Assembly (NCBI GenBank): GCA_023954815.1
Contig: JAGSHB010000052.1
Span: 1-35,646, forward strand
Length of the DNA: 35,646 bases
DNA from: Myxococcales bacterium
Lineage (GTDB): Bacteria; Myxococcota_A; UBA9042
Direction of reading: 5' to 3'
In this document: positions 4,867 through 34,297 of the stretch, piece after piece
How positions within the stretch are numbered: the first letter of the stretch is position 1
Layout: each line of letters starts with the position of its first letter
The notes under the pieces: generated by a model
Told to the model about the DNA's origin: nothing
What the model saw: the letters and a program-made list of their open reading frames with translations, nothing else
Database searches by the model: none
Made by a program: the position numbers and the translations under genes

Positions 4867-6261
4867 ATGACAGCTTTGACCCGCGCTACGAAGTCTACAG
4901 GCGGTCGCGGCCTCGCTCCTCACGGGAGTGCCAGCGCTCAGCCGCCCCACCCTCCGCCCCAGTTGCAGTCGCCCACGAGTGCCGAGTTGCTCGCATACTT
5001 CGGCGAGACTTGGCACCTCTACGATTGGCTCTTCAGCGGCGTGGCGCCTGAGGCCATCGCCATGCAGCCCGACCCGCTGCGGCATCCGTTGGTGTTCTAT
5101 GTCGGTCACACCGCTGCATTTTACGTCAACAAGCTGCGTCTCGCAGGGCTCTGGCAGGATGGCGTCGACGCCCATCTCGACCAACTCTTCGCTCGTGGGG
5201 TTGATCCCGCAACGGCCAACGACCTGCAGACCCTAGCGTGGCCAACGCTAGCTGAGGCACTGCGCTATCGCGGGACGGTCTTTGACAGGGTCCGGCTGTT
5301 CATCGAAGGCTTAGATGTTTGTGGTGCCATCACCCCATCTGATCCGCTCTGGTCTCTCGCGATGAGTTTAGAGCACGACCGCATTCACTTTGAAACCAGC
5401 TCCGTTCTCATTCGACAGCTGCCGTTAGATGTGGTCACGCGTCCTCCTGGCTGGGTCTATGCTGACACCGCCGGCGAGCCACCGCCGCTCGCCTGGATCG
5501 CTGTTCCGCCACGCAGCGTTGAGTTGGGGCGTCCCGCGTCTGGGGCCACCTTTGGCTGGGACAATGAGTACGGCCAACTCGCCGCCGACGTGTCTGCCTT
5601 CGTCGCAACTCAGAATCTGATCTCCAATCGCGACTACTTTGGGTTCGTCTCTGACGAGGGCTACGCGCGGCGTGATCTGTGGAGTGAGGCTGGCTGGCGC
5701 TGGCGGTCGAGACAGGCCGTCGAACGGCCGCGTTTCTGGACGGGATCGGTGTCAAACCCACGCTATCGGGCGATGTTCGATGAGCTGGAGATGCCTTGGT
5801 CGTGGCCGGTGGAGGTCTGCGCACATGAGGCCGAGGCCTTCTGTCGCTGGCTGGGTGGAGGTGCCCGGCTCCTGCGAGAGGTCGAACATGCTGCCCTTGC
5901 CCTGGACGCCCCCCGAGACAGCACCGGCGATTCGATCGCGCACCCCGGCTACAACCTCAACTTACGCTATGGATCGCCGTGCCCAGTCGCTAGCCTCCCA
6001 TCCGGTCGTACGCCGTTGGGGTTTAACGACGTGTTCGGCAATGTATGGCAGTGGTTTGGCGATGATTTTCAACCGCTTCCAGGTTTTGTGCCGCACCCCT
6101 ATTACCCGGAGTTTTCACAGCCTTACTTCGATAGGGACCATGCGGCGCTCGGTGGTGGCGCTTGGGCCTCCACGGGCGCGAGCGCGAGCCGATTGTACCG
6201 ACTGTGGTTTCGCCGCCACTTCTTCCAACACGCCGGGTTTCGGGTAGCGCGCGATGTGTGA
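4867..6261 (+). CDS. OvoA-type 5-histidylcysteine sulfoxide synthase, no methyltransferase domain
   Basis: Predicted non-haem iron enzyme that uses O2 to join the Cys sulfur to the His imidazole ring, the first step of ovothiol synthesis. The N-terminal DinB-like part carries RHPLVFYVGHTAAFYVNKL and SLEHDRIHFETSSVLIRQ, very close to OvoA. The likely iron ligands are His81 and the HX3HXE motif His170/His174 (Glu176). The C-terminal FGE-sulfatase-like half contains GFNDVFGNVWQWF and ends with WFRRHFFQHAGFR, again OvoA-like rather than EgtB-like. At 464 residues it stops where canonical OvoA (about 700 residues) continues into its SAM methyltransferase domain. Start chosen at ATG 4867 after GGAG (4852-4855). 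Its stop overlaps the next start by 8 nt (ATGTGTGA). Family membership is strong; the exact Cys-type acceptor substrate is not known. Confidence 0.9.
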   Translation: MTALTRATKSTGGRGLAPHGSASAQPPHPPPQLQSPTSAELLAYFGETWHLYDWLFSGVAPEAIAMQPDPLRHPLVFYVGHTAAFYVNKLRLAGLWQDGVDAHLDQLFARGVDPATANDLQTLAWPTLAEALRYRGTVFDRVRLFIEGLDVCGAITPSDPLWSLAMSLEHDRIHFETSSVLIRQLPLDVVTRPPGWVYADTAGEPPPLAWIAVPPRSVELGRPASGATFGWDNEYGQLAADVSAFVATQNLISNRDYFGFVSDEGYARRDLWSEAGWRWRSRQAVERPRFWTGSVSNPRYRAMFDELEMPWSWPVEVCAHEAEAFCRWLGGGARLLREVEHAALALDAPRDSTGDSIAHPGYNLNLRYGSPCPVASLPSGRTPLGFNDVFGNVWQWFGDDFQPLPGFVPHPYYPEFSQPYFDRDHAALGGGAWASTGASASRLYRLWFRRHFFQHAGFRVARDV

Positions 6262-7438
6262 GCGGGCGAGAAATCGACTCAGCGAGGGGCGATCGGGCAC
6301 CACACGAGCGCGTCGCTTGCGTCCCGAGGGCGCGCCGCATCCTCGGGATGAAGCCAGTCAGGCACCAGCGTCGTCGCACAGTTCTGCGGCGCGCTCGCCG
6401 GCAACGTGGGTCCCTCAATCCCGCCCAGATCCCGACTCGGTAGGGGAGGGTGCAGATGCACGGCGCGACAAGGCTCCCGAACGAGACCCTCACCAACGCG
6501 CCCTCATAGAGGCCGCCGGGCGCTTGGGTGTGCGCTGCGAAGATCTGCTCGAGAGTTGGGGGGTCGACGTCGTTCGCTACTCGAAGGCCGGTCGCAGCGC
6601 GCTGGTCCTGGATGGCTGTACCACCACCGCGCTCGGGCACGTAGCTGAGGTGATCTGCGCCAACAAGCGGGCGACCTGCGCGCTCCTGAGTGAGCTCGCA
6701 TTGCCTGTGCCGAACGCGGTCGTCGTCGAGCCCGGACAGAGCCGCGCGGCGATCCTCCGCGACCTCCCCAGCGACCGTCCCCTGGTGTGCAAACCCCTTG
6801 AAGGGACCAACGGCGAAGGCGTAGTGATGGGGCTGGTTGACGACGCCGCGATTGTGGAGGCCGTCGAAGCGTGTTGGCGTCGGGGCCCCGCGCTGGTGGA
6901 GGCACAGATCCCGGGAGCCGACCTTCGTATTCACGTCATCGGTCGCCGTGTGGTCGCTGCCTGTGAACGTCGTCCGGCGGCGGTCACGGGAGACGGTCGC
7001 TCCACTGTGGCCGAGCTAGTTGCCGCCCGAGACGCCGAAGTGCAGGCGCACAACCCGCAGAATCGGCTGCAGCTGGACGCGGCCTCCCATGCGCTCTTGG
7101 CGGCGGCCGGCTGCACGCTCAGTGACGTGTTGGCCAAGGGGCGCGTGCTGCCACTGAAGACCGTCGCAAATATCGCTCAGGGGGCAACCCCTGTGGACAT
7201 CACCCACCTGCTGCATCCTCGCTATCAGGCATGGGTGGCGCGTATCGGGGCATCGCTGTCGCTGGATATCTTCGCCCTAGACGTCCTCGCGCTAGATCCG
7301 ATGGCAGACCCTGCCCAAGGGGGCGCGGTAATTCTCGAGGTCAACGCCCGACCTCAGTGGCTTCATCACACGTTCTCGCAGGGCCAAACACATGATGTCG
7401 CGGCGATGCTGCTTACCGCGCTGTTGGAGGATCGATGA
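6254..7438 (+). CDS. Cyanophycin-synthetase-type ATP-grasp ligase
   Basis: Predicted carboxylate-amine ligase making an amide bond through an acyl-phosphate. ICANKRATCALLSELALPVP starts the ATP-grasp fold. RPLVCKPLEGTNGEGVV supplies the nucleotide-binding Lys180 and Gly-rich loop, and VTGDGRSTVAELV plus KTVANIAQGATPVDITHLLHP are typical of the ATP-grasp part of cyanophycin synthetase (CphA). ILEVNARPQWLHH supplies Mg ligands Glu362/Asn364. It lacks both the CphA N-terminal domain and the C-terminal Mur-ligase domain, so it should add one residue rather than polymerise. Residues 1 to about 78 are Arg/Pro/Ser/Ala-rich and look disordered; the ATG is supported by the 8-nt overlap with the sulfoxide synthase gene, but a later non-ATG start is possible. 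It overlaps the next gene by 4 nt. Confidence 0.88.
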   Translation: MCERARNRLSEGRSGTTRARRLRPEGAPHPRDEASQAPASSHSSAARSPATWVPQSRPDPDSVGEGADARRDKAPERDPHQRALIEAAGRLGVRCEDLLESWGVDVVRYSKAGRSALVLDGCTTTALGHVAEVICANKRATCALLSELALPVPNAVVVEPGQSRAAILRDLPSDRPLVCKPLEGTNGEGVVMGLVDDAAIVEAVEACWRRGPALVEAQIPGADLRIHVIGRRVVAACERRPAAVTGDGRSTVAELVAARDAEVQAHNPQNRLQLDAASHALLAAAGCTLSDVLAKGRVLPLKTVANIAQGATPVDITHLLHPRYQAWVARIGASLSLDIFALDVLALDPMADPAQGGAVILEVNARPQWLHHTFSQGQTHDVAAMLLTALLEDR

Positions 7439-8427
7439 GTGAGCCGCTTCGCGTGGGAGTCTGCGTCCCGCCTCGTCCGCGTCCCCATGACCCTGGCTTC
7501 GACAAACCCTGGACCTGGGGCTGTCTCAAACCCGATATCCAGGCGTCCTTGGTGTCCGAACTCGAGCGGGTCGAACACCTGACCATTGAGCCAGCCGACT
7601 TTCGTCTGGCGTGGGTGGACGGGGGCAAGGTCTGGCTCGCTGGTCGCTGCTTGAATGAGCTGGATGCGCTCTTTTGGTATTGCGAGGTCGACAGGCAGCC
7701 AGGGGCGTTTGCGCTGACCATCCTGAAGATCCTTGCGGCCGACATTCCGGTCTATCCAGATCCGAACAGCTGGGAGATCGCTGTCGACAAGTTCACGGCC
7801 CACGTGGCGCTGGCACGAGCGGGGCTGCCGGTGCCAGAGTTCATGCTCGTCGACCTCAATAACCTCGCCCCAGCGGAGACGGCTCTCTCGCGGTGGGGAG
7901 GCGCGATGCTTAAGCCGCGCCGGGGTGCCTGGGGCAAGGGGGTCACATTCATCGAACACCCTTCGACCTTGCGAGATCTCGCGGGCTACATCCGCTCGAC
8001 CACAGGTGGCTCACCGGATGGCGGCCTGCTTCTCGAGCGCTACTACAACAACGACATCTCACGGTGGAGCAGCGTCACGGTGCTCGGTGGTGAGGTCATG
8101 TACGGCTACCGAAAACAGGCCAGTCGCCGCGCGTCGCTGCCGGGCGGCCGTCAGAAGGTCTACGACCCCGACGAGCAGGGGGGCGCTGTGGTGCGTTGTG
8201 ATCTCACCGAGGCTCACGTTCAACTCGCCAAGGCAGCGGCGGCCGCCCTCCGTTGCCCCATCATCGGCTTTGACATGATCTGGGTCGACAACGCACCGCT
8301 CATCATCGATGAAAACACCTCGCCGGGGAATTACCCGGCGCTCTATGCCGAGGTCGGGATCGATCCGGCCAGTGCCTTCGCCAATTTGATTGTCTCGCTG
8401 GTGACTTCGCGCCGCCCAGCACAGTAG
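7435..8427 (+). CDS. RimK/glutathione-synthetase-type ATP-grasp ligase
   Basis: A second predicted amide-forming ligase, 330 residues. AVDKFTAHVALARAGLPVPE begins the ATP-grasp domain. GGAMLKPRRGAWGKGVTFIE gives ATP-binding Lys160 and the Gly-rich loop, and GFDMIWVDNAPLIIDENTSP gives the Mg-binding acid and Asn (Asp292/Asn294). The N-terminal ~95 residues form the usual pre-ATP-grasp domain. The start ATG lies inside the ATGA overlap with the preceding gene, with GGAGG at 7426-7430 just upstream, so translation is probably coupled. It is the last gene of the 4867-8427 operon and is convergent with the giant lipoprotein gene. The two ligases are clearly different subfamilies, so they probably act on different bonds rather than being a recent duplication. 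Substrates cannot be read from sequence. Confidence 0.88.
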   Translation: MSEPLRVGVCVPPRPRPHDPGFDKPWTWGCLKPDIQASLVSELERVEHLTIEPADFRLAWVDGGKVWLAGRCLNELDALFWYCEVDRQPGAFALTILKILAADIPVYPDPNSWEIAVDKFTAHVALARAGLPVPEFMLVDLNNLAPAETALSRWGGAMLKPRRGAWGKGVTFIEHPSTLRDLAGYIRSTTGGSPDGGLLLERYYNNDISRWSSVTVLGGEVMYGYRKQASRRASLPGGRQKVYDPDEQGGAVVRCDLTEAHVQLAKAAAAALRCPIIGFDMIWVDNAPLIIDENTSPGNYPALYAEVGIDPASAFANLIVSLVTSRRPAQ

Positions 8428-8498: not shown

Positions 8499-10970
8499 CT
8501 ACTTCACACACTTGTTGAACACGCACAGGTTGCTGCTGCAGTGCTTGTTCTCCTTGCACTCGACGCAGGTCACGAAGCAGTGCCCGCTCTTGCAGGCGTT
8601 GTCGACTGCGCAGAACACGCCCAGGTCGACCTTGCCGTAGCAGGTTCCTGCGTAGCAGTAGTTGCCACTGCCACAGTGGCCGTCGTTGAGGCACGAGGCG
8701 CACACCGTGCTGCAATGCCCGCCGATACACTGACTCCCCTTTCCGCACGGAACCCCGTTGCCCAGCTTGCTCACGCAGCTCCCCAAGGCGTTGCAGAACA
8801 GCGTCGGGCCACAGGGCGCATCGCTGCCGTTGCAGCCGCAGGTGCCGAGCGCTAGACATTGGCCCGTGGTGCACTCCGCGTGGACTTTGCAGGTCTTGCC
8901 GTAGATTTTCGAGTTCGCCGTGTAGCAGTACTGGCTGCAGGTGCCGCTCTGGCAGTGCTCAGGGACGCCGCAGCCGACGCCGTCCGCCACCTTGGGCAAG
9001 CACCAGCCGAGGCCGCCGCAGTATTGGGTCTTGCCACAGTTGGCGTGGGTGCCATTGCACCCGCATGTGTTGTCGGACAAACACTGGAGGGTGTTGCACT
9101 CAGCGTGCACCTTGCACGACTGACCATAGCTCTTCGATTTCGGCTTGTAGCAGTACAGGTTGCACGCGCCGCCGGCACAGTTCTCCGCCTTTGTGCAAGC
9201 GGCCCCGTCGGGCAGCTTCTGACACTTGTAGCTCAGGCACAGGTTGCCGCCGGTGCACTTGCTCGACGACTTGCACTCCACGCACGTGCCAGCGCACTGG
9301 CCACTCGTGCAGGCGTTATCTACTGCGCAGTACTGACCCAACCCAACTTTGGTGTAGCAGGTGTTCTTGTAGCAGTAGTTGCCCGCGCCGCAGTGGCTAT
9401 CTTCCTTGCAGCTGACACAGATCCCGGCGCAGTGCCCGCTCTTACAGGCGTTGTCGACTGCGCAGAATGACTTAAGCCCCACCTTCGCGTAGCACGCGCC
9501 GCCATAGCAGTAGTTGCCGTCGCCGCAGTGGCTGTCGGCGGTGCACGCCACGCACACTGTGCTGCAGTGCCCACTGGTGCATTGGTTGGGCTTTTTGCAC
9601 AGCAACCCGTTGCCGAGCGTGGTTGCGCAGCCCCCCAACAGGTTGCAGAACTGCCCCGCGCCGCAGTTGGCGTCGGTGCCGTTGCAGCCGCAGGTGTTCG
9701 TGGCCAAGCACTGCAGCGTCTTGCACTCGGCGTGCACCTTGCAGCTTTGGCCGTAGTTCTTCGACGCCTTGGTGTAGCAATACCCGTCGCACACCCCGCT
9801 CGCACACACAGCCGCCTCGGAGCAGAGCGTGCCGTCCTTGAGCTTGGCGACACAGCTCCCCAACTTGTCGCAGAACTGCCCGCTGGGGCAGTTGGCGTGG
9901 GTGCCATTGCATCCGCACTTGTTGGACGCAAGACACTGCTTAGTGTTGCACTCCGCGTGGACCTTACAGCTCTCGCCGTAGCTCTTTGCGGCCTTGGTGT
10001 AGCAGTACAAGTCACAGAGCCCGCTCTTGCAGTGGCTCGGCGAGGAACAGGACACACCGTCGCCCAACTTTACGACGCACTTGCCGAGCGCGTCGCAGAA
10101 CTGGCCGGTCGAGCAGTTTGTGTCCTTGCCGTTACACCCGCACGTACCGGCGGCGAGGCACTGCCCGGTCGTGCACGCCGCGTGGACCTTGCATGCGCCA
10201 CCGTAAGCCGTCGCGCCCTTTGTGTAGCAGTACAGGTCGCACAGTCCACTGACGCACTCGATGGGCGCCCCGCAGCCGGCGCCGTCGGCCAGTTTGGGCT
10301 TGCAGTAGTTGCCCGCCTTGTAGCACCAGCTCGTTGTGGGACAGGTCTTGCCGTTGACATTGCAGTCACGGCAGGTCCATGTCGGGTCGCCGCAGTCGGA
10401 GCTCTTGCAGCGGCGGTGGATCCCGGTGGAGATCTCCGTCGAGAAGCAACTTTCCCCGCCCCCGAGTCGCGCCTGACAGGCGCCGTTGTCCGCACAGAAT
10501 TTATCGGCTGTGCAGGTGTCCCCGCTTGCCTTGAAGCCAGGGTGGCCGGGCGGAAAGCACGCCACACAGGTGGTGTCGCACTTGCCCGATGCACACCATG
10601 CGTGCTCCATTCCCTTGTTGACCCCGACACACGCAGCGCCGAACGGGAGCTTGGTCTCGCAGGCCCCGGTATTGTTGCAGAACTCGCCATTCTTGCAGCC
10701 GTTTTTCTTGGCCGGGGAGCACGCGCGGCAGAAGCCACCCCAGCAGTTGCCCGAGGCGCAGTTGGTGTCCTTGGTGCACACCGCGTCGATACCCTTCTTG
10801 TCCGCGCAGACGCCCAGGTAGCAGGTCTTGTCGCTGGCGCACATCTCGTCCGCTAAGCAGTGCGTGCCGCAACCGAACTTAGGCGTGAATCCGCCCGCGT
10901 GAAAGCACACGCCGATGGCGCAGTCGAAGGTTTCGGCGAACTCGTCGCTCTTTTGCTGCTTGTAGTTGCC
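8499..10970 (-). repeat. C-terminal Cys-rich repeat region of the giant lipoprotein
   Basis: Five copies of a module with the core YGxSCKVHAECxTxQCL then CGCNGTxANC occur at about 10206-10133, 9982-9907, 9756-9683, 9129-9061 and 8909-8830. Adjacent copies are ~225-230 bp (75 residues) apart. Between the third and fourth, and again after the fifth, lie CSTVCxxC / HCGxGNYCY / FCAVDNACKSGHC modules. All repeats stay in frame. Confidence 0.85.
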
Positions 10971-13900
10971 TGTGCCGCAGAGGCTCTTTTCGGCGAAGTC
11001 GAGCTTGAGCTGCAGGCTGATGCTCCCGAGTGTGATCTTTACGAGGTCCAGGAAGGTCCACTCACCGAGGTTAACGCTCGCGGTGAGAGAGACCTCCTTG
11101 CTGGTCAGCTTCACCTTGTTGGCGAGCAGGTCCCAGCCGTGGGCCGCGAGCTTGCCGTCGATGATCATGCCGGGGATCAGCGAGTCGTAGACCACCTTCC
11201 CGAACAGGCCGACGTTGCCAAAGCCGCCCAGGGGAGCGGCCAGGGCCAGGACAGCGCTGACATAGATCCGGTAGTCAGCGAAGGTCTTGCAGGTCTTGCC
11301 GGGCGGGCAGCCGATGAGCAAGTCTGCGCCCGCGAAGTCGATTCGCTTTTCGGGGTCGAGCACGTCCTGGTTCTTGGCGTCCTTTGGCGTAAAGCGCAGC
11401 ACGCTTGACCCAGACAGCTTGAAGTCGATGAGATCGATGGCGCCATAGACCCCGTCATCCGCATCGCTGGGCCGTAGGTTGGGCCCGTTACCTGTGCTGC
11501 TGAACTTACCCCAAAAGGGCACGGTCAACAGGGGCCGGGGTCGCGAGAAGTAATTCCCCGCCGCCTTGCCATCGCCGACCGACGCCCAGACACGCATGCC
11601 CCACTCTTCTCCGATGACCGGGATCACCATCTTGGCGCCCATCCGAAGCTGTAGCCCGAGTTTGGGCACCTCGAGCTTCTTCGGCATGGGCAAAGTCATG
11701 TGCACCTCGATGCCGTTGTCCTCCACCGTCACCCGTGGGGTCGCCTGACCATTGAGAACGCCGTGCATCTGGCTGACCGCGACGTCCTTGATTGGTGGGT
11801 ACACCCGCGTGTTGTAGGCCGTGGCACCTGGCTTGTTGGCCTGATCCCAGTCGAATGACCAACGACCGACAAGATCCGGGTGGCCGTGGATGTCCTGAGG
11901 CAGCTGCGTCTGCCAACTGGCGATATCGGCCGGCGTGCGCTGGCTCTTCCAGATGCGCACGTCGTCGAACGCCTGCAGCCCCTTGCCAGCCCACAACGCG
12001 GCGCTGGCGTCGCCTGGCGCCACGAACGTGCCCACAGCCGTCGACTCCTGGAGCTCGCCGTTGACGTAGATGCCGGCGCGGCCGTCGCCGAAGCTCACGG
12101 CGAGATGACTCCAGGTCCCCGGCGGCACCACCGCTTTGGTCGTCGTCAGCTTGTAGACCTTGCCGCTGCTGCGGAGCTCGAGCGTGACCCGCGTCTTGCC
12201 GAGCGCGTTTGCCGAGCCGAGCCGCAACGCATAGCCATTGTTGGTGTCAATATGGGAGAGCAGCGTCGCCTGCCAGCCGGCTGGCGGCACCTTGGGTGGC
12301 TTGGCCCTCAGCTCCAGGCTGCCCTGGCTCACCCCGAGGCGCGGGTCATCGGAGACGATGAGCCAGCCATCCTTGTTCTCGACGTATTGGCTGTAGGGAT
12401 CGCCGACGATGTAGACACCAAACTCCTTCAGGTTGAACAGGTCGATGGGGCTCATGTGGCCATGCAGCTTGATGCCGCCGCCCATCATCTCGCCCTTCAA
12501 GCGCAGCTCCTTGCCTGCAGCGGTCGCGTCGATGTCGACCCGATATCCGCGCGGGAACCAGCGGCCGAAGCGCTCGGCGCTGTGGGTCGACGAGTACACC
12601 TCAAAGTTCTTCACTTTGAGGTCGAACGGCTTGAAGTCCGGTAGCTGGACCGTCTCGGTCGGCAAGGCAGAGTCGAAGCGAGCGACGCTGTTCGACTGCA
12701 CATTGCGGAGCACGGTGAGAAGGTCGTCCGAGTCGACGTTCTTCGCTGCAAGACGTAGTAGGAACGGCGGTGTGGGCGGGCACAGGTGCTTGGTCTTGAC
12801 CTTCAGCGTGATGCAATAGCCGAGCGGCAGTGGCGTCGGAGACGTGAAGTACGTCGCCCCGAGCATCAGCACGTTGGTGATCTTTGGGTCCGATAGCTTC
12901 AAGGTCGGCGCGGGCCAGGCCCCCGACTTTTTGATGAAGATATTGCCGTTCATGCCCCAGCCACCAAAGCTCAGCAACGTCTTGGCGCCGGCTGCTGCCG
13001 ACTCCTTCTGCGCGTGGAGGCCCAGGGCGAGACCGAGGTCCTCGATGGCTAGGTTCTTCAGGCCAAAGGGCTCCATCCAGCGCCCTGTGAGCGCCAACTC
13101 GCCGAGCAGGTCAAAGGTTGACTTCTTGTCCGCCTTGTAGATGAACGTGCCGGTGAGCGAGGCCTGCAGCGCCAGCGGGTTCGTGGCGTCGGCCGGCAGG
13201 ATTTTTGCGACTCCTTTGATCCCTAACTTCACGGTGTTCGGCGGGCTGATGGTCCCGACCAGCTTCAGCTGCTCCATCTTCATGCTGGAGATGCCTGGGA
13301 CCTTTTGTTCAGGCTTGACGAAGACCCACGACGACGGCAGCACGTCGACTAGTCCAATGTCGTAGGACAGCAGGCTGCGCATGTTGACGAAGAGCAGGAG
13401 CTTGTCTCCGATGCCGAAGTCGATGGGCAGACCGTGCAGCCCGATCATCGTCACGCCCTTGCTGACCGAGTGCAACTTGTTCCACTTATCGCCGCCCGCG
13501 GCCGCGAGCGTCTTGCCAGACATCGGCACGGACGCGACCGCCAGGCTGAACGCCTTCAGGACGCCAAAGAAGGGTACCTTGATGTCGGGCATATCGCCGA
13601 CCCAATAGGCTCCCTTGGGGCTCACGAAGTTCAGCACGCCGTTGACTGTGAAGTAGTTCGCCGCGCAGTTGCTGTGCAGGCAGATGTTGGCCCGATGGCT
13701 TGAGGTGAACCGCTCAACCCCGCTGGCAGAGGTCATCAAATTGACGCTGGTCTGGTCGAGCACAAAGGACGCGGCGCCGCTCGTCTTGGGCATGGGCTTG
13801 ACCTTGCCCGGGACGCTCCCACTGAGGTCGAGCGTGTTCGCCTTGCTCAGGGTCCCCTTCCATACCGGGTCGAAGGTCGTCGACCCCATCTTGAACGACC

Positions 13901-16900
13901 CCTTCGCGGCCCCCGCGCTTCCGACGGTCAACGCCGTGTGGCCCACACCCAGCTTGAGGTCCAGCCCCGAGAGCTCCGTCCCATGGCCCAGCTTCAACTG
14001 GGTCGCGATCTTGAGCGTGACCACCGACTTGGCGCCGAGGGTGAGCGTGCCGCTGACCGCTAGACTCTGCTTGTACAAGGCCAGGGCTGCCGACAGGACG
14101 GTGCCGGTGAGCGCCCCGTCCTTGTCCTTGCAGACCCGCAACTTGGCGTTGGTCAGCGTGAGGTGCAGCAGCGGCAAGCTCGCCACCGTCTTGTCGACAC
14201 ACCAGATCACCGGTCCCGAGGTCACGCGTGTGACCTTGGCTGTCGCCTTGTGCTTGCCGAGCACGCCAAAATCAAAGGTGCCCGCAACGTCGGTGCTGAG
14301 GTTGGGCGCCAGGACCGACGCGGTCCACACGGCTTCCGCCATCAAGCCGTTGAACGTGCCCTCGCAGACCTTGTCTGCGATTTCGTCTGTCTGGGCGTCG
14401 CAGTCGTCGTCGATCCCATTGCAGATCTCGAGCGCGTTCGGGTCGCCCTTGCACAGGTATTCGCAGCCGTTGTCGCTCTTGCCGTCGATGTCGTAGCTGC
14501 CAGCCGCGCAGGTCTTGACCGCACATGTCCCGGCGCTGCACGCACCGACCGCCGACCCGCCGAGAGGGCAGCTCTTGCTGTTGGGCTTGGGCGCACACCC
14601 CTTCTGGCTGTCACAGTTGTCGTCGGTGCAGACGTTGCCGTCGTCACAGACCTTGGCGGGCCCTCCCTGGCAGCTACCCGCCTTGCAAGCGTCCTTCGTC
14701 GTGCAGACATCGCCGTCCGTGCAGGCGGCGGTGTTGGCCTTGTGTTGGCATCCCTTGGTCGGGTCGCAGCTGTCATCGGTGCAGACGTCCCCGTCATCGC
14801 ATCCCGGCTGGCCGATCCGTAGGGCGTCGAGTTCGCACGCCGGCAGCGCTCGACTGAACACCAAGAGTTCGTCGACACGCAGTGTCGATCGGGTGGGCGA
14901 CGCGCTCGGCCCATAGGCGCCGACCCACAGCCGCTGTTTGTCGGAGACCACTGGGGCTGGCCCAAACCCTGTCGCCTCCAACTTTCCGTCGACACGCAGG
15001 CGTAGCGCGGCGCCATCGTGGGTCGCCGAGATGTGGTGCCAAGCGTTGTCTCGTACATCTCGGGAGCCATTGAGGTACAGCCCGGTGCCGCCGATGTGGA
15101 CGACGCCGTTCTCCGGGCGCACGAAGACCGAGAAGTTGCGGTTATTCCACGGATCGTTGCGACCGTGGTCCTCTTTGGCTACCGCCGCCTCCCATCGGCT
15201 GGTCCCCGGGGGCAGCTTCAGCCAAAGGCTGATGGTGTACGTCTTGAGGTGGAGCGACTTGTCGGCCTCGAACGAGATGAGGCTCTTACCGCCGAACGCC
15301 ATGGCCTTGTCGATCACGCCGCTGACATAGCCGGCCGGCGTGCCAGTCGCACTCAGCTTACTAGCCGTCTCGGCGCCGGTGCCGTCACCCGCCATACGGA
15401 CGAGGAGGTCAACTGGCAGCGACCCATTCGCGCCGGATCCGCTGGCAAAGGCCGCGCCGATGCACTTGCCTCCCGAGCAAATGTCCCGTGTCGTGCAGAG
15501 GCTGTCGTCGCAGCAGGGCAGGGTGTTGTTCGTGAACACGCACCCCGCAGCCCCACTGGACGGCTTCGGATTGCAACTGTCGGTTGTGCACGGGTTGTTG
15601 TCGTCGCATGTCTTGGCTGCGGCCGCGGCGCACGCGCCCTTGCCGTCGCAGGTCGCCGCCAGTGTGCAGGCCTTCGCGCCCGCGCAAACCACGCCGCTCT
15701 TTGCGAAGCCATGAACGCAGCCGCTCGCCTTGGCGCATCCGTCGGTTGTGCAGGGGTTGCCGTCGTCGCATTTCAGGGCGCCGCCGCCCTTGCAGCTACC
15801 GCTCGCGCACTTATCTCCGACCGTACATGCGTCGCCGTCCGAGCACGCCATGGTTCCTGGCACCGCCACACAGCCGCCTTTGACCTTGGGATCGCAGCTG
15901 TCGACCGTGCACGCGTTGCCATCGTCGCATCCCTTGGGGGTCCCGGCCACGCAGGCGCCCTTTGCGCAGGTGTCAGAGAGCGTGCACGGGTTGCTGTCAT
16001 CACACTTCAACGCGTTGTGCGCGTGGTGGCACCCCGCCTTGAGGCTCCCGCTGGCCTTGGGTTTACAGCCGTCGGTTGTACAGGGGTTGCTGTCGTCGCA
16101 CGACACGACCGCCATTGCTTTGCACGCAGCTTGGTTGCACGTGTCCTTCGTGGTGCAGGCGTCTCCGTCATCGCAGGGCAGGGCGTTGGGCTGCGCTACA
16201 CACCCCTTCTTTGCGTCGCACGCATCGGTGGTGCAAGGGTTGTTGTCGTTGCACACCACGGGTTTGCCCGGGGAGCACTTTCCCTTTGCGCAGGTGTCGC
16301 CCTGCGTGCAGACGTTGCCGTCGTCGCACTTGGCGCTCGTTGTCGTGACGATGCATCCCTTGAGCTTGTCGCATGACTCCGCTGTGCACGGGTTGCCATC
16401 GCTGCACGAGTTGACAACGCCCGGCTTGCAACTGCCCTTTTGGCAGGTGTCGCCCACAGTGCACGCGTCACCGTCACTGCATGGGGCGGTGTTGTGCTGC
16501 GGTTTACACCCCCCGCTCGGGTCGCAGAACTCGGTCGTGCAGGGGTTGTTGTCATCGCAGACCGTCTTGGCACCTGGCACGCACTGGCCGTTCTTGCAGC
16601 TGTCTTCACCCGTGCACTTACTGCCGTCGTCGCAGGTGATCTTGGTGTTGGCGCCTGTGGTCAACGCCAGGTGCACGCAGCCCTTTGCCTTGTCGCAGGT
16701 GTCGCTCGTGCACGGGTTCTTGTCGTCGCAGAGTTGCGCCTTGCCGGGGACGCAGGCGCCCTTCGAACAGGTGTCGCCGACCGTGCAGACCGAGCTGTCA
16801 GAGCACGGACCGTCGGTGGCGGTCGAGGTGCATCCCTTCGTCGGGTCGCAGGTGTCGGCGGTGCATGGCTTTCCGTCGTCACAGGCGACCAGACCGCTGA

Positions 16901-19088
16901 TGACACACTTTCCCTTGCTACAGGCGGTGAACGTACAGGCGTTGCTGTCGTTGCAGCTGACCTTCCCACCTCCGCTTGCGGTCTTTGCCGCATACACGCA
17001 TCCGCTCGCCTTGTCGCACAGATCGGTCGTGCACGGGTTGTTGTCCTGACAGACCAGCGGTTTTCCAGAGAGACAGACGCCACTCTTGCAGACGCTGGAC
17101 TGCGTACACGCGTTCCCATCGTCACAGCCGATGGCCTTGCCGTCGGATGCGACGATGAACTGGTGCACGCACTTGCCGGTTTTGGTGTCACAGCTGTCGA
17201 GCGTGCACGGCGACTTGTCGGAGCAGTCGACAGCCGCGCCGCTCTTACAGCCGCCACCCTTGCACACATCGGGCTGGGTGCACGCGTTTCCGTCGTCACA
17301 CGCAGCGCTCTTGTGGGCAAACACGCAGCCTGCACCTGGACTGCAGGCGTCCGCGGTGCAGGGGTTGTTGTCATCGCAGGTGACCTGCGCGCCGCCGACA
17401 CAGGCACCGCTCTTACAGCTCTCGCCCTGGGTGCACAGGTCGCCGTCATCACAGGATTTGCCTCCAGGTACGCTGACACAACCCACTCCTGGCTTGCAGC
17501 TGTCGATGGAGCACGCGTTGTTGTCGTCGCACGCGCTCACTGCGCCTGGCAGGCAGACCGTGCCCTTGCAGGTATCGCCCTTCGTGCAGCCATTGCCGTC
17601 ATCACAGGCCGCCCCATTGGCTGCATGCACGCAGCTCGCCTTGCCGCCGATCACCGAGCAACCGTCAGCCGTACACGGATTGTCGTCATTGCAGTCCGCC
17701 GCCAGGCCCCCTTTGCAGCCTTTATCGCCACACTTGTCCTGATGGGTGCATGGGTCTCCATCATCGCATGGTCCTGCGTTGGGCTTGTTGGTGCATCCTG
17801 TCTTTGCGTCACAGTGAGCAGTCGTGCAGGGGTTGCCGTCACCGCACGGCGCTTGCTTGCCGCCCGTGCATACCCCGGCCTTACAGCTGTCCTTGCCGGT
17901 GCACGCGCTGCCGTCGTCGCAGGGAGCCGGCGTGGACTTGCTGTCCGTCAGCTTGGTGTGAACGCAGGCGGGTGTGTTCTTCGCGGCCTTGGCGTTGCAA
18001 CTGTCCTTCGTGCATGGATTGTCGTCGTCGCAGTCCAGCTGCTGCGCGCCTTTGCACTTGCCGTCGGTGCATGTGTCCTTCTTCGTGCAAGGGTCTCCGT
18101 CGCTGCATGCGATGGTCGTGACGCCCTTGGTCGGTGTGTGAACGCATCCCAGTTTGATGTCGCAAGCGTCGATCGTGCAGGGGTCGTTGTCCTTGCACGC
18201 CACCGCCGCTCCAGGCTGGCAAGCTCCGTCGCTACAAGCGTCGCCCTTGGTGCAGACGTTGCCGTCATCGCAGTCGGCACCAGACTCATCCGTCTCTCCG
18301 TCGCAGTCATCGTCTTGGCCGTTGCACGTCTCCGGGCTGCTGGACGACGAGCACGCTGCGAGACCTTGTGTCGTACAGCCGCGCTTTCCAACGCACAGCT
18401 TCGCTGGCTGGTTGCCCAGACTCGCAGGCCAGCAGTCGGTCTTGTTGCCGGACTGGACCGCGGCGGTCGAACACTCGCAGATCCCGAGAGCGCCATCAGC
18501 CTGCAGGCGCACACAGCCGGCGGCTTGGTTCGCAGCGCCTGCCGTCGGCGATTCGACCGGCAGGGGCTGGCAGCCATAGCCCTTGGGGCAGCCCGCAGAA
18601 CAGGGCCCCGCACAAAATGCACCGACGGGTCCATAGCGCAGGCAGACCGAGCCCGCATCGCAGTCCGAAGACGTCGCGCAGGGCGCGCAGAGCAGGGTTG
18701 GCACGGCCGCCGATGCGCCGCTGTCGCCTTGCGGAGCATCGGCCGCCACAGCGTCGCTCACCGAGGCGTCACCAGCTTCGGCGGCGTCGGCTTTGCCCTC
18801 ATCGATCGCCGTATCTGCCACTGACGCGTCTGCCGCCAAGCTGTCGTCGAGCGGGGTGTCGATCTGGTGCGCATCGTCCGGCCCAGCGTCCTCAGGTTGT
18901 GCGTCCACCTGGCTGGCAGGCGTGTCGACGAGCGCGGCGCTGTCTTTGGGTTCCACGTCAGCGTGCGCGGCGTCTGTCTTCGTAGACGGCCCCGCGCCGT
19001 CCCCGCAACCTGCCAGCGCGACTAGGGCCGAAAGGAAGACGTGAGCAGCGCGCCAGCGAGTTCGAGTTTCCAGCGTTAACATCGCCAT
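8499..19088 (-). CDS. Giant cysteine-rich multidomain lipoprotein
   Basis: About 3,530 residues in one uninterrupted frame. I chose ATG 19088 because GGAG (19096-19099) lies 7 nt upstream; an in-frame ATG at 19148 would add 20 residues before the signal peptide. In order: a signal peptide ending in lipobox LAGC; an Asp/Ala-rich linker (DNA ~19030-18700); a MopE-like motif CNGQDDDCDGETDE (~18300); about 18 alternating CDDG/NPCTTD Cys modules (~18280-15450); a LamG/concanavalin-like domain (~15410-14815); more CDDG modules; a second CNGIDDDCDAQTDE motif (~14400); ~1,100 Cys-poor beta-rich residues (14330-10970) with a second LamG-like domain (~12330-11840); and ~820 residues of Cys-rich repeats to the C-terminus. 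Likely outer-surface, perhaps adhesin or structural; the ligand is unknown. By rough count it has on the order of 300 Cys. The triple DsbA-like gene lies just upstream on the same strand. Confidence 0.9.
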   Translation of the reverse strand: MAMLTLETRTRWRAAHVFLSALVALAGCGDGAGPSTKTDAAHADVEPKDSAALVDTPASQVDAQPEDAGPDDAHQIDTPLDDSLAADASVADTAIDEGKADAAEAGDASVSDAVAADAPQGDSGASAAVPTLLCAPCATSSDCDAGSVCLRYGPVGAFCAGPCSAGCPKGYGCQPLPVESPTAGAANQAAGCVRLQADGALGICECSTAAVQSGNKTDCWPASLGNQPAKLCVGKRGCTTQGLAACSSSSSPETCNGQDDDCDGETDESGADCDDGNVCTKGDACSDGACQPGAAVACKDNDPCTIDACDIKLGCVHTPTKGVTTIACSDGDPCTKKDTCTDGKCKGAQQLDCDDDNPCTKDSCNAKAAKNTPACVHTKLTDSKSTPAPCDDGSACTGKDSCKAGVCTGGKQAPCGDGNPCTTAHCDAKTGCTNKPNAGPCDDGDPCTHQDKCGDKGCKGGLAADCNDDNPCTADGCSVIGGKASCVHAANGAACDDGNGCTKGDTCKGTVCLPGAVSACDDNNACSIDSCKPGVGCVSVPGGKSCDDGDLCTQGESCKSGACVGGAQVTCDDNNPCTADACSPGAGCVFAHKSAACDDGNACTQPDVCKGGGCKSGAAVDCSDKSPCTLDSCDTKTGKCVHQFIVASDGKAIGCDDGNACTQSSVCKSGVCLSGKPLVCQDNNPCTTDLCDKASGCVYAAKTASGGGKVSCNDSNACTFTACSKGKCVISGLVACDDGKPCTADTCDPTKGCTSTATDGPCSDSSVCTVGDTCSKGACVPGKAQLCDDKNPCTSDTCDKAKGCVHLALTTGANTKITCDDGSKCTGEDSCKNGQCVPGAKTVCDDNNPCTTEFCDPSGGCKPQHNTAPCSDGDACTVGDTCQKGSCKPGVVNSCSDGNPCTAESCDKLKGCIVTTTSAKCDDGNVCTQGDTCAKGKCSPGKPVVCNDNNPCTTDACDAKKGCVAQPNALPCDDGDACTTKDTCNQAACKAMAVVSCDDSNPCTTDGCKPKASGSLKAGCHHAHNALKCDDSNPCTLSDTCAKGACVAGTPKGCDDGNACTVDSCDPKVKGGCVAVPGTMACSDGDACTVGDKCASGSCKGGGALKCDDGNPCTTDGCAKASGCVHGFAKSGVVCAGAKACTLAATCDGKGACAAAAAKTCDDNNPCTTDSCNPKPSSGAAGCVFTNNTLPCCDDSLCTTRDICSGGKCIGAAFASGSGANGSLPVDLLVRMAGDGTGAETASKLSATGTPAGYVSGVIDKAMAFGGKSLISFEADKSLHLKTYTISLWLKLPPGTSRWEAAVAKEDHGRNDPWNNRNFSVFVRPENGVVHIGGTGLYLNGSRDVRDNAWHHISATHDGAALRLRVDGKLEATGFGPAPVVSDKQRLWVGAYGPSASPTRSTLRVDELLVFSRALPACELDALRIGQPGCDDGDVCTDDSCDPTKGCQHKANTAACTDGDVCTTKDACKAGSCQGGPAKVCDDGNVCTDDNCDSQKGCAPKPNSKSCPLGGSAVGACSAGTCAVKTCAAGSYDIDGKSDNGCEYLCKGDPNALEICNGIDDDCDAQTDEIADKVCEGTFNGLMAEAVWTASVLAPNLSTDVAGTFDFGVLGKHKATAKVTRVTSGPVIWCVDKTVASLPLLHLTLTNAKLRVCKDKDGALTGTVLSAALALYKQSLAVSGTLTLGAKSVVTLKIATQLKLGHGTELSGLDLKLGVGHTALTVGSAGAAKGSFKMGSTTFDPVWKGTLSKANTLDLSGSVPGKVKPMPKTSGAASFVLDQTSVNLMTSASGVERFTSSHRANICLHSNCAANYFTVNGVLNFVSPKGAYWVGDMPDIKVPFFGVLKAFSLAVASVPMSGKTLAAAGGDKWNKLHSVSKGVTMIGLHGLPIDFGIGDKLLLFVNMRSLLSYDIGLVDVLPSSWVFVKPEQKVPGISSMKMEQLKLVGTISPPNTVKLGIKGVAKILPADATNPLALQASLTGTFIYKADKKSTFDLLGELALTGRWMEPFGLKNLAIEDLGLALGLHAQKESAAAGAKTLLSFGGWGMNGNIFIKKSGAWPAPTLKLSDPKITNVLMLGATYFTSPTPLPLGYCITLKVKTKHLCPPTPPFLLRLAAKNVDSDDLLTVLRNVQSNSVARFDSALPTETVQLPDFKPFDLKVKNFEVYSSTHSAERFGRWFPRGYRVDIDATAAGKELRLKGEMMGGGIKLHGHMSPIDLFNLKEFGVYIVGDPYSQYVENKDGWLIVSDDPRLGVSQGSLELRAKPPKVPPAGWQATLLSHIDTNNGYALRLGSANALGKTRVTLELRSSGKVYKLTTTKAVVPPGTWSHLAVSFGDGRAGIYVNGELQESTAVGTFVAPGDASAALWAGKGLQAFDDVRIWKSQRTPADIASWQTQLPQDIHGHPDLVGRWSFDWDQANKPGATAYNTRVYPPIKDVAVSQMHGVLNGQATPRVTVEDNGIEVHMTLPMPKKLEVPKLGLQLRMGAKMVIPVIGEEWGMRVWASVGDGKAAGNYFSRPRPLLTVPFWGKFSSTGNGPNLRPSDADDGVYGAIDLIDFKLSGSSVLRFTPKDAKNQDVLDPEKRIDFAGADLLIGCPPGKTCKTFADYRIYVSAVLALAAPLGGFGNVGLFGKVVYDSLIPGMIIDGKLAAHGWDLLANKVKLTSKEVSLTASVNLGEWTFLDLVKITLGSISLQLKLDFAEKSLCGTGNYKQQKSDEFAETFDCAIGVCFHAGGFTPKFGCGTHCLADEMCASDKTCYLGVCADKKGIDAVCTKDTNCASGNCWGGFCRACSPAKKNGCKNGEFCNNTGACETKLPFGAACVGVNKGMEHAWCASGKCDTTCVACFPPGHPGFKASGDTCTADKFCADNGACQARLGGGESCFSTEISTGIHRRCKSSDCGDPTWTCRDCNVNGKTCPTTSWCYKAGNYCKPKLADGAGCGAPIECVSGLCDLYCYTKGATAYGGACKVHAACTTGQCLAAGTCGCNGKDTNCSTGQFCDALGKCVVKLGDGVSCSSPSHCKSGLCDLYCYTKAAKSYGESCKVHAECNTKQCLASNKCGCNGTHANCPSGQFCDKLGSCVAKLKDGTLCSEAAVCASGVCDGYCYTKASKNYGQSCKVHAECKTLQCLATNTCGCNGTDANCGAGQFCNLLGGCATTLGNGLLCKKPNQCTSGHCSTVCVACTADSHCGDGNYCYGGACYAKVGLKSFCAVDNACKSGHCAGICVSCKEDSHCGAGNYCYKNTCYTKVGLGQYCAVDNACTSGQCAGTCVECKSSSKCTGGNLCLSYKCQKLPDGAACTKAENCAGGACNLYCYKPKSKSYGQSCKVHAECNTLQCLSDNTCGCNGTHANCGKTQYCGGLGWCLPKVADGVGCGVPEHCQSGTCSQYCYTANSKIYGKTCKVHAECTTGQCLALGTCGCNGSDAPCGPTLFCNALGSCVSKLGNGVPCGKGSQCIGGHCSTVCASCLNDGHCGSGNYCYAGTCYGKVDLGVFCAVDNACKSGHCFVTCVECKENKHCSSNLCVFNKCVK
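15450..18280 (-). repeat. Array of about 18 paired CDDG/NPCTTD cysteine modules
   Basis: Within the giant lipoprotein two half-modules alternate. Type A follows CDDGxxCTxxDxCxxGxC; type B follows CDDNNPCTTDxCDxxxGC. Each pair spans ~45 residues with eight Cys. The DNA is visibly repetitive but diverged at third positions. Two more modules follow the first LamG-like domain (about 14800-14560). Asp-rich, Cys-rich repeats of this kind are frequent in Myxococcota surface proteins; metal binding is plausible but not shown here. Confidence 0.88.
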
Positions 19089-19365
19089 GGAGATTCTCCA
19101 GAACTGGGCGCGGCCTGATAGCGCAACACGAGTGCGCGGTCTGGCCACCTCACGAAATTGGACCGGTTTGGTAGCACATAGGCGATCAGACCCGGAGATA
19201 TATCGTTAGTCAGTACGAACCGTTGTCTACGGCCGTGCACTACCCCGAATATTCGTATTTCGTCAGGATTTCGCCGTTAAATCGACGCTCGTATCGGGCG
19301 CGGTAGCCGCCCCATCCTTTGAGTCAGATCGCGGGGCTTCATTGTCCCCGTAGTCGGCCGGTCGC
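19089..19365 (-). promoter_or_regulatory. Spacer upstream of the giant lipoprotein gene, probable promoter region
   Basis: This 277-bp gap separates the triple-DsbA gene (stop 19366) from the giant gene on the same strand. It is more AT-rich than its surroundings between ~19190 and 19290. On the minus strand TAGACA and GATATA, about 19 nt apart near 19230-19195, could be a weak promoter. A CGGGG/CCCCG stem (19332-19350) lies just after the DsbA stop but lacks a T-run. Whether the two genes share a transcript is undecided. Confidence 0.3.
19096..19099 (-). promoter_or_regulatory. Ribosome binding site fixing the giant gene start
   Basis: GGAG on the minus strand sits 7 nt before ATG 19088, which leads directly into a normal-length lipoprotein signal peptide. 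The upstream in-frame ATG at 19148 has no comparable site and would place 20 extra residues ahead of it. Confidence 0.7.
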
Positions 19366-21324
19366 TCAGGGCTTGGCCGCCGTGCCAGCAGCACCCTTGC
19401 CAACACGCTTCACGAGCGAGCGCAGCGTCCGCTGCAGGGCATCGTTCCGGTACCCACCAGACGGCCGGTAGCGACGCCCTTGGATAAACACAGTCGGCGT
19501 ACCGCGCACGCCAGCCTTATTCGCCTGCGCCATACTCTTGGCGATCAGCGCCTCATACCTGGGCCGGTTGGCCGCCACGTCCTTGATGGACAAGCCAGAC
19601 TCCTGCGCAATTTCAGACAGCTTCGCAAAGGACAGCTGGCGACTCGCCGCGAAGAGCTTGGCGTGCACCTTGGCGAACAGCGCCTGCCCTCCCTGCTCGT
19701 ACGCGTGCTGCGCGAGATGTGCTGCGGGCCTCGCCATCTTGTGAAAAGGAAGTGGATAGTGGGCCATCACCACCCGAACCTGGCCGCCAAACTGTTTCGC
19801 CAAAGGCCCAAGCGCACGATGCGCGCGCACGCAGAAGGGGCATTGGTAGTCCACAGCCACCCACACGGTGATCTTGGCGTCTTTCGGGCCCAACATCGGC
19901 AGGCCAATCTCCGGAAAGTTGTGCACGCGCTGCTGCAAGGGCTCGAATACTTTGCCCTTGGCCACGAGGCTTTCGTAGTAGGCGGGGCCATGCTTGCCCT
20001 TGGCGGTCGCGAGCTCGTCGTCGATGACCGCTTTGAACTTGGCCAGTGGCTGGGCGCCCATGAGCTTGCGACCGTTGACGAAAAAATTCGGTGTGCCGCG
20101 CACGCTGATGCCCTTGGCCAGCTTCATGTCCTCATCGATCTGTTGGTCGGCAGCGGCGCTCGTCATGTCCCGCTTGAAGCGCGGCATGTTCAGCTTGAGC
20201 TGCTTCGCCCAGGAGATGAGGTTGCCGGTGCTCAGCCTGCGTTGGTTGGCGAAGAGCAGGTCATGGTACGGCCAGAACTTGCCTTGCTTGCCCGCTGCAA
20301 TCGCCGCTTTGTGGGCGCCGCGCGCGTTGACGTGAAAGGACAGCGGGTGGTGCTTGAACACGATGCGCACCTTGTCGCCGTACGCGGCCTTCACCTGCTT
20401 GAGGGTGTTGTTGCCGCGTGAACAGTAAGGGCACTGGAAGTCTGAAAACGCAACGATGGTGACCACGGCCTTGGCGCTGTTGCCGGCGATGGTGTCTTTT
20501 TTTGAGTCAACCGGCACCTTCCATACGGTGTCGCTGTCCTGGCGACGCATGACGCCCCCGCGGAGACGCCCAGCCGGTGGTGCGCGCGGCGGGATTTTGG
20601 CGCCACCGAAGAAGTAGGCCAGCACCTTTGGGCCCACCTTTGGCGCACGCAGGCGAAAGCTCTCCGCCATCAGCGCCGCGCCGCGTTTGCCCGTCTTGCG
20701 CAGCGCCTTCGCCTGTACCAGCGCCGCATCGATCTCCTTCTGAAACTTCGGAAAGGGGTGCGCGCCACTGAGCAGCTTGCCGTTGATGAAGAACCCAGGC
20801 GTGCCCCGGGCACCCAGCGCCACCGCGGCCCGCTGCTCTCGGTCGATTTGCTGGCTCAGCTTGGGATCGTTGAGGTCCTTCTCGAACGTCTCAACGTCCA
20901 AGCCAATCTGTACGGCCCACAGCAGGAGGTTCTCGTCCGTGAGGGCGTGCTGATTCGCGAAGATGGTCTTGTGCATCTGCCAGAACTTGCCCTGCCGATG
21001 GGCAGCCAGCGCCGCAATCGCCGCCGGTCTCGCGCGTTTGTGAAAGTACAGCGGGTTGTTCGCCCACACCCGACGCACTTGCGGGTAGGTGCGCATAATC
21101 CGCGCCATGGTGGGCCCAGCACGGGTGCAGAAGGGGCACTGAAAGTCCGACACCTCGATGATGGTGACCAGCGCATCGGCCGGCCCCTCTGAGGGCATGG
21201 TGCTGGGTACCATCGCAGCCGCAGACGTGGTCGCAAAGGTCGCGGCAGCCGCAAAGAGCAGCGCCACAGCCGAGGCCACGGCGCCATTGCTCGTGGGTGT
21301 AGAGCGCCAAGGTGATGAGAGCAT
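19366..21324 (-). CDS. Exported protein with three tandem DsbA-like thioredoxin folds
   Basis: About 650 residues. ATG 21324 is preferred: GAGGAA (21331-21336) is 6 nt upstream and a signal peptide follows (AVALLFAAAATFATTSAAA); an in-frame ATG at 21384 would add 20 residues. Three Thioredoxin_4/DsbA-like domains follow, each with a CPxC active site and a cis-Pro loop: CPFC at 63-66 with RGTPGFF, CPYC at 298-301 with RGTPNFF, CPFC at 495-498 with RGTPTVF. Each also has the 'FH..A..AA.AA..QG.FW..H..LF' helical insert typical of DsbA-like proteins. All three catalytic pairs are intact, so each domain could be redox-active in the periplasm. Role inferred: forming or shuffling disulfides, most obviously in the adjacent giant Cys-rich lipoprotein. 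Divergent from the radical SAM gene. Confidence 0.92.
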   Translation of the reverse strand: MLSSPWRSTPTSNGAVASAVALLFAAAATFATTSAAAMVPSTMPSEGPADALVTIIEVSDFQCPFCTRAGPTMARIMRTYPQVRRVWANNPLYFHKRARPAAIAALAAHRQGKFWQMHKTIFANQHALTDENLLLWAVQIGLDVETFEKDLNDPKLSQQIDREQRAAVALGARGTPGFFINGKLLSGAHPFPKFQKEIDAALVQAKALRKTGKRGAALMAESFRLRAPKVGPKVLAYFFGGAKIPPRAPPAGRLRGGVMRRQDSDTVWKVPVDSKKDTIAGNSAKAVVTIVAFSDFQCPYCSRGNNTLKQVKAAYGDKVRIVFKHHPLSFHVNARGAHKAAIAAGKQGKFWPYHDLLFANQRRLSTGNLISWAKQLKLNMPRFKRDMTSAAADQQIDEDMKLAKGISVRGTPNFFVNGRKLMGAQPLAKFKAVIDDELATAKGKHGPAYYESLVAKGKVFEPLQQRVHNFPEIGLPMLGPKDAKITVWVAVDYQCPFCVRAHRALGPLAKQFGGQVRVVMAHYPLPFHKMARPAAHLAQHAYEQGGQALFAKVHAKLFAASRQLSFAKLSEIAQESGLSIKDVAANRPRYEALIAKSMAQANKAGVRGTPTVFIQGRRYRPSGGYRNDALQRTLRSLVKRVGKGAAGTAAKP

Positions 21325-21330
21325 GGTGGA

Positions 21331-21336
21331 TTCCTC
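21331..21336 (-). promoter_or_regulatory. Ribosome binding site fixing the triple-DsbA start
   Basis: GAGGAA on the minus strand lies 6 nt before ATG 21324, the codon that opens the signal peptide. This favours 21324 over the in-frame ATG at 21384. Confidence 0.65.
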
Positions 21337-21470
21337 AAGATGCTGCGCCTGCGATGCGCCACGGATGCGGGCAGCAGACCTCAAGCGCCCCTCGAATTCA
21401 ATCGAAGCGTCGTCACCAGCAGGCGCTCCTGTGACCCTTGCCGCCTGAGAGATTGTGCTAGCTTGCGCCC

Positions 21471-31315: not shown

Positions 31316-32023
31316 CTACGGCGTCTTGTTGGCTGCCTGCTTCCGCACGCCGCGGCCGACTCGCTCGAGCACGCGCCGCAACCGCGCGCGACGCTCGGGC
31401 GACAGCCGATTTTTCGGCAGGACGTCGGCAGGCGTCGCGCCGCCCCCAGCCTGCCTTTCCAGCCATGCGACCGTCTCCGCCCGGAGCCGCAGATCTTTGG
31501 GGAACCGGGTGCGAATAAACGCCAACAGCTCTTCCTCGGTCGCGCCAGCGCGTTTGCGCTTGAGCAGCTGCCACACGATCGGAGGAGCCGGCTTGCCCAG
31601 CCGCTTGCCAAGATGGGACAGCAACCCCAGGTCTTTGTCGGCGACCTGCGCGCGGATCGCGCCGACCATTCCGCCTGCCGGGAGACGCTTGCCGCGCGGC
31701 AGCCCAACCGTCGCTTTGTCGTCGGCTCGCGGGGCTTTTTGCGGTGACGGCGCACGGGTGATTGTGGTCGATTTGGGTAGCGATTTGGGCGGCCGCCCAG
31801 AGTCCGCCGAGGCGAAAGGGCGGTGGCCCCTCGAATCAACGCTGGTCGGAAGAGGCTTCACGTTTTTCGAGGGCCTCGGCAGCTCATGCCACGTCTCTAC
31901 CGATGCGCCCGGTTGAGCGGAGTCGGCCCCCCAGGGTGACACGCCCCAAAACAACGCACCGCCTGCGAGCAGTACTGCGGCCGCAGCGCCAATGAGCGTC
32001 TGACGAGATGGCTTAGTCGACAT
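31316..32023 (-). CDS. Single-pass membrane protein, helical, unknown function
   Basis: A 235-residue protein with an N-terminal membrane segment (LIGAAAAVLLAGGALFWGV), a Pro/Ser/Lys-rich spacer (~35-105) and a C-terminal, Leu/Arg-rich helical region. The hydrophobic segment could be an uncleaved anchor; no cleavage site or lipobox is convincing. Its ATG lies inside the last codons of the clostripain-like gene (11-bp overlap, AGATGTCGACTAA), so translation is probably coupled, and it ends 15 nt before the PPC lipoprotein start. No family recognised. Position suggests a partner or anchor for the protease system. Confidence 0.7.
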   Translation of the reverse strand: MSTKPSRQTLIGAAAAVLLAGGALFWGVSPWGADSAQPGASVETWHELPRPSKNVKPLPTSVDSRGHRPFASADSGRPPKSLPKSTTITRAPSPQKAPRADDKATVGLPRGKRLPAGGMVGAIRAQVADKDLGLLSHLGKRLGKPAPPIVWQLLKRKRAGATEEELLAFIRTRFPKDLRLRAETVAWLERQAGGGATPADVLPKNRLSPERRARLRRVLERVGRGVRKQAANKTP

Positions 32024-34148: not shown

Positions 34149-34297
34149 GGTGAACTCTGGGTGAAGGGACGAGGGTGGGCGCACGATAGCGTTAGGCGCC
34201 TCAAGACAAAAGCCGAAATCCGCTGTGACACAGGCGTTGCAATACAACTCAATTGCATTAGCCTCCGCGCCCGTGTCGAGCACGAAGGAGCCGGACC

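Follow-up and report, generated by a model that had tools for sequence, protein, structure and literature searches.

A cyanophycin synthetase-related ATP-grasp ligase is paired with a stand-alone sulfoxide synthase in Myxococcota and with a metallopterin-dependent synthase homologue in Calditrichota

What does a sulfoxide synthase of the OvoA superfamily make when it has no methyltransferase domain and is encoded together with ATP-grasp ligases? The question is raised by a three-gene operon in a 35,646-nucleotide stretch of DNA from a Myxococcales bacterium (assembly GCA_023954815.1, contig JAGSHB010000052.1; hereafter the window). A first-pass annotation of this stretch had proposed an OvoA-type synthase lacking the methyltransferase (gene 1), followed by two ATP-grasp ligases (genes 2 and 3). 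According to our comparative analysis, the new element appears to be not the methyltransferase-less OvoA itself but the family of gene 2, a ligase common to two unrelated sulfur-insertion systems, where it apparently replaces the histidine methyltransferase EgtD.

We searched 379 Myxococcota genomes, including the window's own (G000), for relatives of the operon. A profile of gene 2 gave three matches at 341-530 bits, in G000, G023 and G448, with the next best at 184 bits; matches at or below this score were mostly open reading frames of about 950 amino acids, the size of full cyanophycin synthetases. With a model of the OvoA N-terminal domain, an intact stand-alone synthase was found only in the same three genomes (465-469 bits; frames of 480-502 amino acids), and five genomes carried bifunctional OvoA (714-775 amino acids; 666-693 bits). 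In each of these genomes, which represent three different families, the two genes lie side by side in the same orientation; the chance of hitting the same three of 379 genomes is about 1e-7. In G448, a single base separates the stop codon of the first gene from the ATG of the second, suggesting translational coupling there.

A scan of a genome collection for gene 2 recovered, besides the record of G023 itself, two Calditrichota contigs (L046 and L047) with homologues of 36-39% identity; the scan relied on exact peptide patterns, by which G448 (WVHHTF) is undetectable, so that it overstates the rarity of the family. In both contigs, the gene 2 homologue lies directly downstream of a gene for a 1132-residue molybdopterin enzyme-cysteine desulfurase fusion, a homologue of the metallopterin-dependent ergothioneine synthase (MES) of Caldithrix abyssi. 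Residues named as important or conserved in MES are four Fe-S cysteines, a cysteine ligand, the pyridoxal phosphate lysine and two relay cysteines (PMC9516567), and all of them are present in the G053 protein (Cys14, 17, 21, 48, 154, Lys948, Cys1070 and 1131). MES has a desulfurase of its own, which supplies it with sulfur from free cysteine, and is described as co-encoded with a methyltransferase (PMC9516567); the ligase-linked homologues, by contrast, are not accompanied by EgtD. They form one clade (G053, G054 and, on a truncated contig, G122), to which a second Calditrichota MES clade is 55-57% identical. The six genomes found with second-clade MES have no gene 2 homologue beside it. In G078, the MES gene (L085 5864-9246) is split into two overlapping frames by a frameshift near its middle, and EgtD is kept in the genome.

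EgtD is missing from all five genomes that carry the ligase. No EgtD above cut-off was found in G053, G054 or G122, and all six second-clade genomes have it (0/2 versus 6/6 on complete contigs, p 0.036; p 0.012 when G122 with its truncated contig is counted). Among the Myxococcota, EgtD (PF10017) occurs in 177 of the 379 genomes and is absent from all three that carry the pair. EgtD does occur in two further genomes of the genus to which the window belongs, in one case with EgtB adjoining (G050 contig 655).

What kind of synthase is gene 1? Its product scores 469 bits against the NCBIfam model ovoA_Nterm (TIGR04344, cut-off 400) and thus counts as an OvoA N-terminal domain, while models for EgtB and selenoneine synthase score far under their cut-offs. 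It consists of FGE-sulfatase and DinB_2 domains, and a domain-model search found no methyltransferase domain in the 464-residue protein, in agreement with the first-pass annotation. The iron-site residues His81, His170 and His174, likewise named there, align with the corresponding histidines of EgtB-IV and OvoA. The label "OvoA-type" holds only in part. Among solved structures, those nearest to gene 1 are of EgtB-IV (8vih and 8vig; 388 and 374 bits), followed by OvoA (8khq; 305 bits), the 5-histidylcysteine sulfoxide synthase. In a tree of 28 sequences, gene 1 groups with its G448 and G023 homologues and a broken copy from G025, with weak support (89/92), beside an EgtB-IV clade (100/99) and outside the bifunctional OvoA clade (99/98); after its own clade, EgtB-IV is nearest by tree path, and the tree does not settle how the three clades branch. 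We therefore describe gene 1 as a probable stand-alone iron sulfoxide synthase in a weakly supported clade of its own.

EgtB-IV, the sulfoxide synthase of ergothioneine biosynthesis in cyanobacteria (Liao and Seebeck 2017, cited in PMC9516567), resembles gene 1 in having an OvoA-like fold without methyltransferase and in keeping the iron histidines, the tyrosine and the YNLN loop. Such a methyltransferase-less synthase of the OvoA superfamily was recruited for ergothioneine in a small cyanobacterial group (PMC9516567), and this feature alone is thus not new. The gene 1 clade differs from EgtB-IV in its ligase partner, in the absence of EgtD from the genome and in a motif near the C-terminus, which reads YRLW in all three intact ligase-paired synthases, YRNW in EgtB-IV and the G025 copy, and SRYA in seven of eight OvoA sequences. 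The Asn-Trp of EgtB-IV aligns with the Asn-Trp of the Mycobacterium thermoresistibile EgtB (MthEgtB) chain (4x8b), which we take to be active-site residues 414-415, a lead rather than a test. From the bifunctional OvoA of the phylum, the stand-alone synthases are set apart by this motif, by their score and by the missing methyltransferase. We reject truncation of an OvoA, since the intact relatives, which come from two further families, have the same end point and keep the ligase. Among plasmid-borne homologues, the annotated synthase matches of at least 40% identity are OvoA, and the four that were read out have long, methyltransferase-sized frames.

In cyanophycin synthetase CphA, the part related to gene 2 is the first ATP-grasp region: residues 116-391 of gene 2 match model positions 192-471, and alignments span about 275-310 residues at about 30-35% identity. 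Unlike CphA, gene 2 has a single ATP-grasp stretch in 394 residues and scores 171 bits against a full-length cut-off of 850, and its family signature contains WLHHxF...HD where CphA has GFRMHV...PRD. The glutathione-synthetase half of GshAB is another relative of the domain. Asp270, Glu289 and Asn291 (alignment numbering) are conserved in a four-sequence alignment; from general knowledge of the fold, we take them to be metal-site residues. An AlphaFold model built from the four sequences reached a mean predicted local distance difference test score (pLDDT) of 49, and its Foldseek match to cyanophycin synthetases merely repeats the sequence result. Among the plasmid matches listed for gene 2, the annotations are cyanophycin synthetase or N-acetylglutaminylglutamine synthetase. 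The first-pass annotation had described three genes with 8- and 4-nucleotide overlaps. All three are indeed intact open reading frames on the forward strand, and genes 2 and 3 share an ATGA at 7435-7438; the 8-nucleotide overlap depends on an ATG at 6254 and is uncertain. Homology of gene 2 starts only at about 6473, and the codon-position GC of 6254-6472 looks non-coding, leaving the true start uncertain; the only in-frame upstream start codons are this ATG and TTG 6317.

What could one ligase contribute to both systems? All that the chemistry of MES and of the sulfoxide synthase has in common is the placement of sulfur on the imidazole of a histidine compound, and MES uses free cysteine. A ligase that serves both enzymes is therefore most likely to work on the histidine moiety, either ahead of sulfur insertion or following it, rather than on the sulfur donor. 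Given that EgtD is missing as well, this points to ligation as a substitute for trimethylation. We lean slightly towards genes 1 and 2 forming a module of two steps that yields a thiol derived from histidine and not methylated on its alpha-amine. The chemistry of the sulfoxide synthase superfamily, in which iron and O2 serve to couple cysteine to imidazole, is established, and gene 1, judging from its intact residues, would likewise attach cysteine to a histidine compound at its imidazole ring. Gene 2 would form an ATP-driven amide bond on the histidine side, joining another amino acid or acid in place of the EgtD reaction, probably by acylating the histidine alpha-amine rather than its carboxylate. 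Sulfur at C2, as in ergothioneine, is favoured over the ovothiol-like C5, since C2 is the position attacked by both EgtB-IV and MES. The thiol would then be released by a C-S lyase whose gene lies elsewhere, and the product, a peptide-like thiohistidine, may belong to a so far undescribed kind of histidine antioxidant. In the anaerobic Calditrichota, the same ligase together with the MES-type enzyme could make a product of this kind independently of O2. A broader reading, which we regard as an even call, is that one ATP-grasp family replaced the histidine methyltransferase and acquired its two partners independently, the iron sulfoxide synthase (O2-dependent) in Myxococcota and the metallopterin synthase (O2-independent) in Calditrichota; the two pathways would then lead to an undescribed class of peptide-linked, non-methylated thiohistidines.

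Gene 3 is an ATP-grasp protein of another subfamily than gene 2, as domain and family matches bear out for both. It resembles RimK, MptN and LysX in fold and metal-site motif, as judged by sequence, but falls far under every curated cut-off. No close homologue was found in the 379 Myxococcota genomes or in the genome-collection scan, and gene 3 is not next to the pair in G023 or G448. The linkage expected in relatives therefore extends to genes 1 and 2 only, and we regard the pair as the conserved unit. Gene 3 is an optional local addition, at most an elaboration that may add a further residue in the window's genome. A pathway in which all three genes act together, with two ligations yielding a tripeptide-like product, is nonetheless possible, if doubtful. 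It would fit the ATGA that genes 2 and 3 have in common and the position of the best gene 3 homologue (29% identity; G451, L146 6843-7790) beside a non-ribosomal peptide synthetase-like reading frame, and it is at odds with the restricted occurrence of gene 3. A reading of genes 2 and 3 as a defence system was dropped, since neither had a PADLOC match.

Hercynine (trimethylhistidine) might instead be imported, gene 1 being an ordinary EgtB-IV that makes ergothioneine and gene 2 coupling an amino acid to the carboxylate of ergothioneine. The proximity of gene 1 to EgtB-IV by score and tree path speaks for this possibility, as does the efficient uptake of trimethylhistidine by recombinant Escherichia coli (PMC9516567). 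We consider it unlikely: reliance on imported hercynine would have to apply in both phyla, all five ligase genomes lack EgtD, and the asparagine of the EgtB-IV motif is replaced by leucine in all three ligase-paired synthases.

The first-pass annotation had also considered that the ligases build a cysteine-containing acceptor first. In our version of this option, gene 2 makes a donor like gamma-glutamylcysteine that gene 1 would use as its sulfur source. Some EgtB enzymes do use gamma-glutamylcysteine, and the relationship of gene 2 to GshAB would suit such a role. In Calditrichota, however, this type of ligase is encoded directly after a MES homologue, and free cysteine is the sulfur source of MES; moreover, gene 1 has Phe448 where the gamma-glutamylcysteine-using MthEgtB has an aspartate, a difference from MthEgtB that EgtB-IV and OvoA share. 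This donor role is accordingly disfavoured and seems quite unlikely. That the product is simply ovothiol, with the ligases serving something unrelated, is very improbable despite the NCBIfam call of gene 1 as OvoA, because gene 1 is strictly paired with gene 2 and the best match to the OvoA methyltransferase domain (TIGR04345) in the whole window genome reaches 30 bits (cut-off 170; 326-336 in genomes with true OvoA), in agreement with the earlier expectation of a product other than ovothiol.

Several points weigh against a ligase-dependent thiohistidine pathway. Its support is genomic, and the ligase is known from only five genomes, several of them metagenome assemblies. The absence of EgtD from the three Myxococcota genomes is not significant by itself (p about 0.15), and the Calditrichota contrast is small and statistically modest. 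The separation of the three synthases from EgtB-IV is only moderately supported, and G025 has its related, frame-broken synthase (L041 2563-3900), which carries the EgtB-IV form of the C-terminal motif, without a ligase beside it; the break may be genuine decay or an assembly error. Finally, the operon contains no C-S lyase, and the fold model of gene 2 is too poor for its substrate pocket to be read. A literature search for ATP-grasp ligases with OvoA, EgtB, ergothioneine or ovothiol returned no relevant title, although its coverage of subscription papers is limited and an earlier description is possible. The features of the operon and the neighbouring genes are listed in Table 1.

Table 1. 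Positions of the operon genes, their sequence features and neighbouring genes in the window
Feature	Position	Strand	Assignment	Basis or remark
Gene 1	4867-6261	+	Probable non-haem iron sulfoxide synthase, stand-alone, of a third clade next to those of EgtB-IV and OvoA; 464 aa	TIGR04344; 8vih, 8vig; tree
His81 (gene 1)	5107-5109	+	Predicted iron ligand	Aligned with the conserved GHxAxFxxNK histidine of EgtB-IV and OvoA
His170 and His174 (gene 1)	5374-5388	+	Predicted iron ligands; HDRIH (H-x3-H-x-E)	Aligned with EHxRIH of EgtB-IV and OvoA
Tyr413 (gene 1)	6103-6105	+	Position of catalytic Tyr377 of MthEgtB	Alignment to 4x8b; conserved in EgtB-IV and OvoA
Leu446-Trp447 (gene 1)	6202-6207	+	YR-L-W motif near the C-terminus	
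Gene 2	6254-7438	+	Single-domain ATP-grasp ligase, cyanophycin synthetase-related; 394 aa	Conserved part 6473-7435; true start uncertain
Gene 2 family signature	7337-7396	+	E[VI]NxxxxW[LV]HHxFxxxxxHD	EVNAAPGFRMHVxPxEGxPRD in cyanophycin synthetases
Gene 3	7435-8427	+	RimK-like ATP-grasp ligase; 330 aa	Not conserved in relatives
Convergent frame	8499-19148	-	3549-aa Cys-rich repeat protein	CDDGxxCT and KVHAEC-type repeats; about 70 bases past the operon end
Thioredoxin-like protein	19366-21384	-	672 aa, three tandem DsbA/thioredoxin-like domains	Pfam
Radical SAM protein	21471-22958	+	495 aa	No closer family found
Peptidase	32013-34283	-	Clostripain family (C11)	

If the proposed pathway is correct, the finding also calls for caution in annotation: neither stand-alone proteins that NCBIfam calls ovoA nor MES homologues from EgtD-lacking genomes can be assumed to make ovothiol or ergothioneine. 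A branch of ligases working with two unrelated C-S bond-forming enzymes would then represent a new class of low-molecular-weight thiols and a case of independent convergence.

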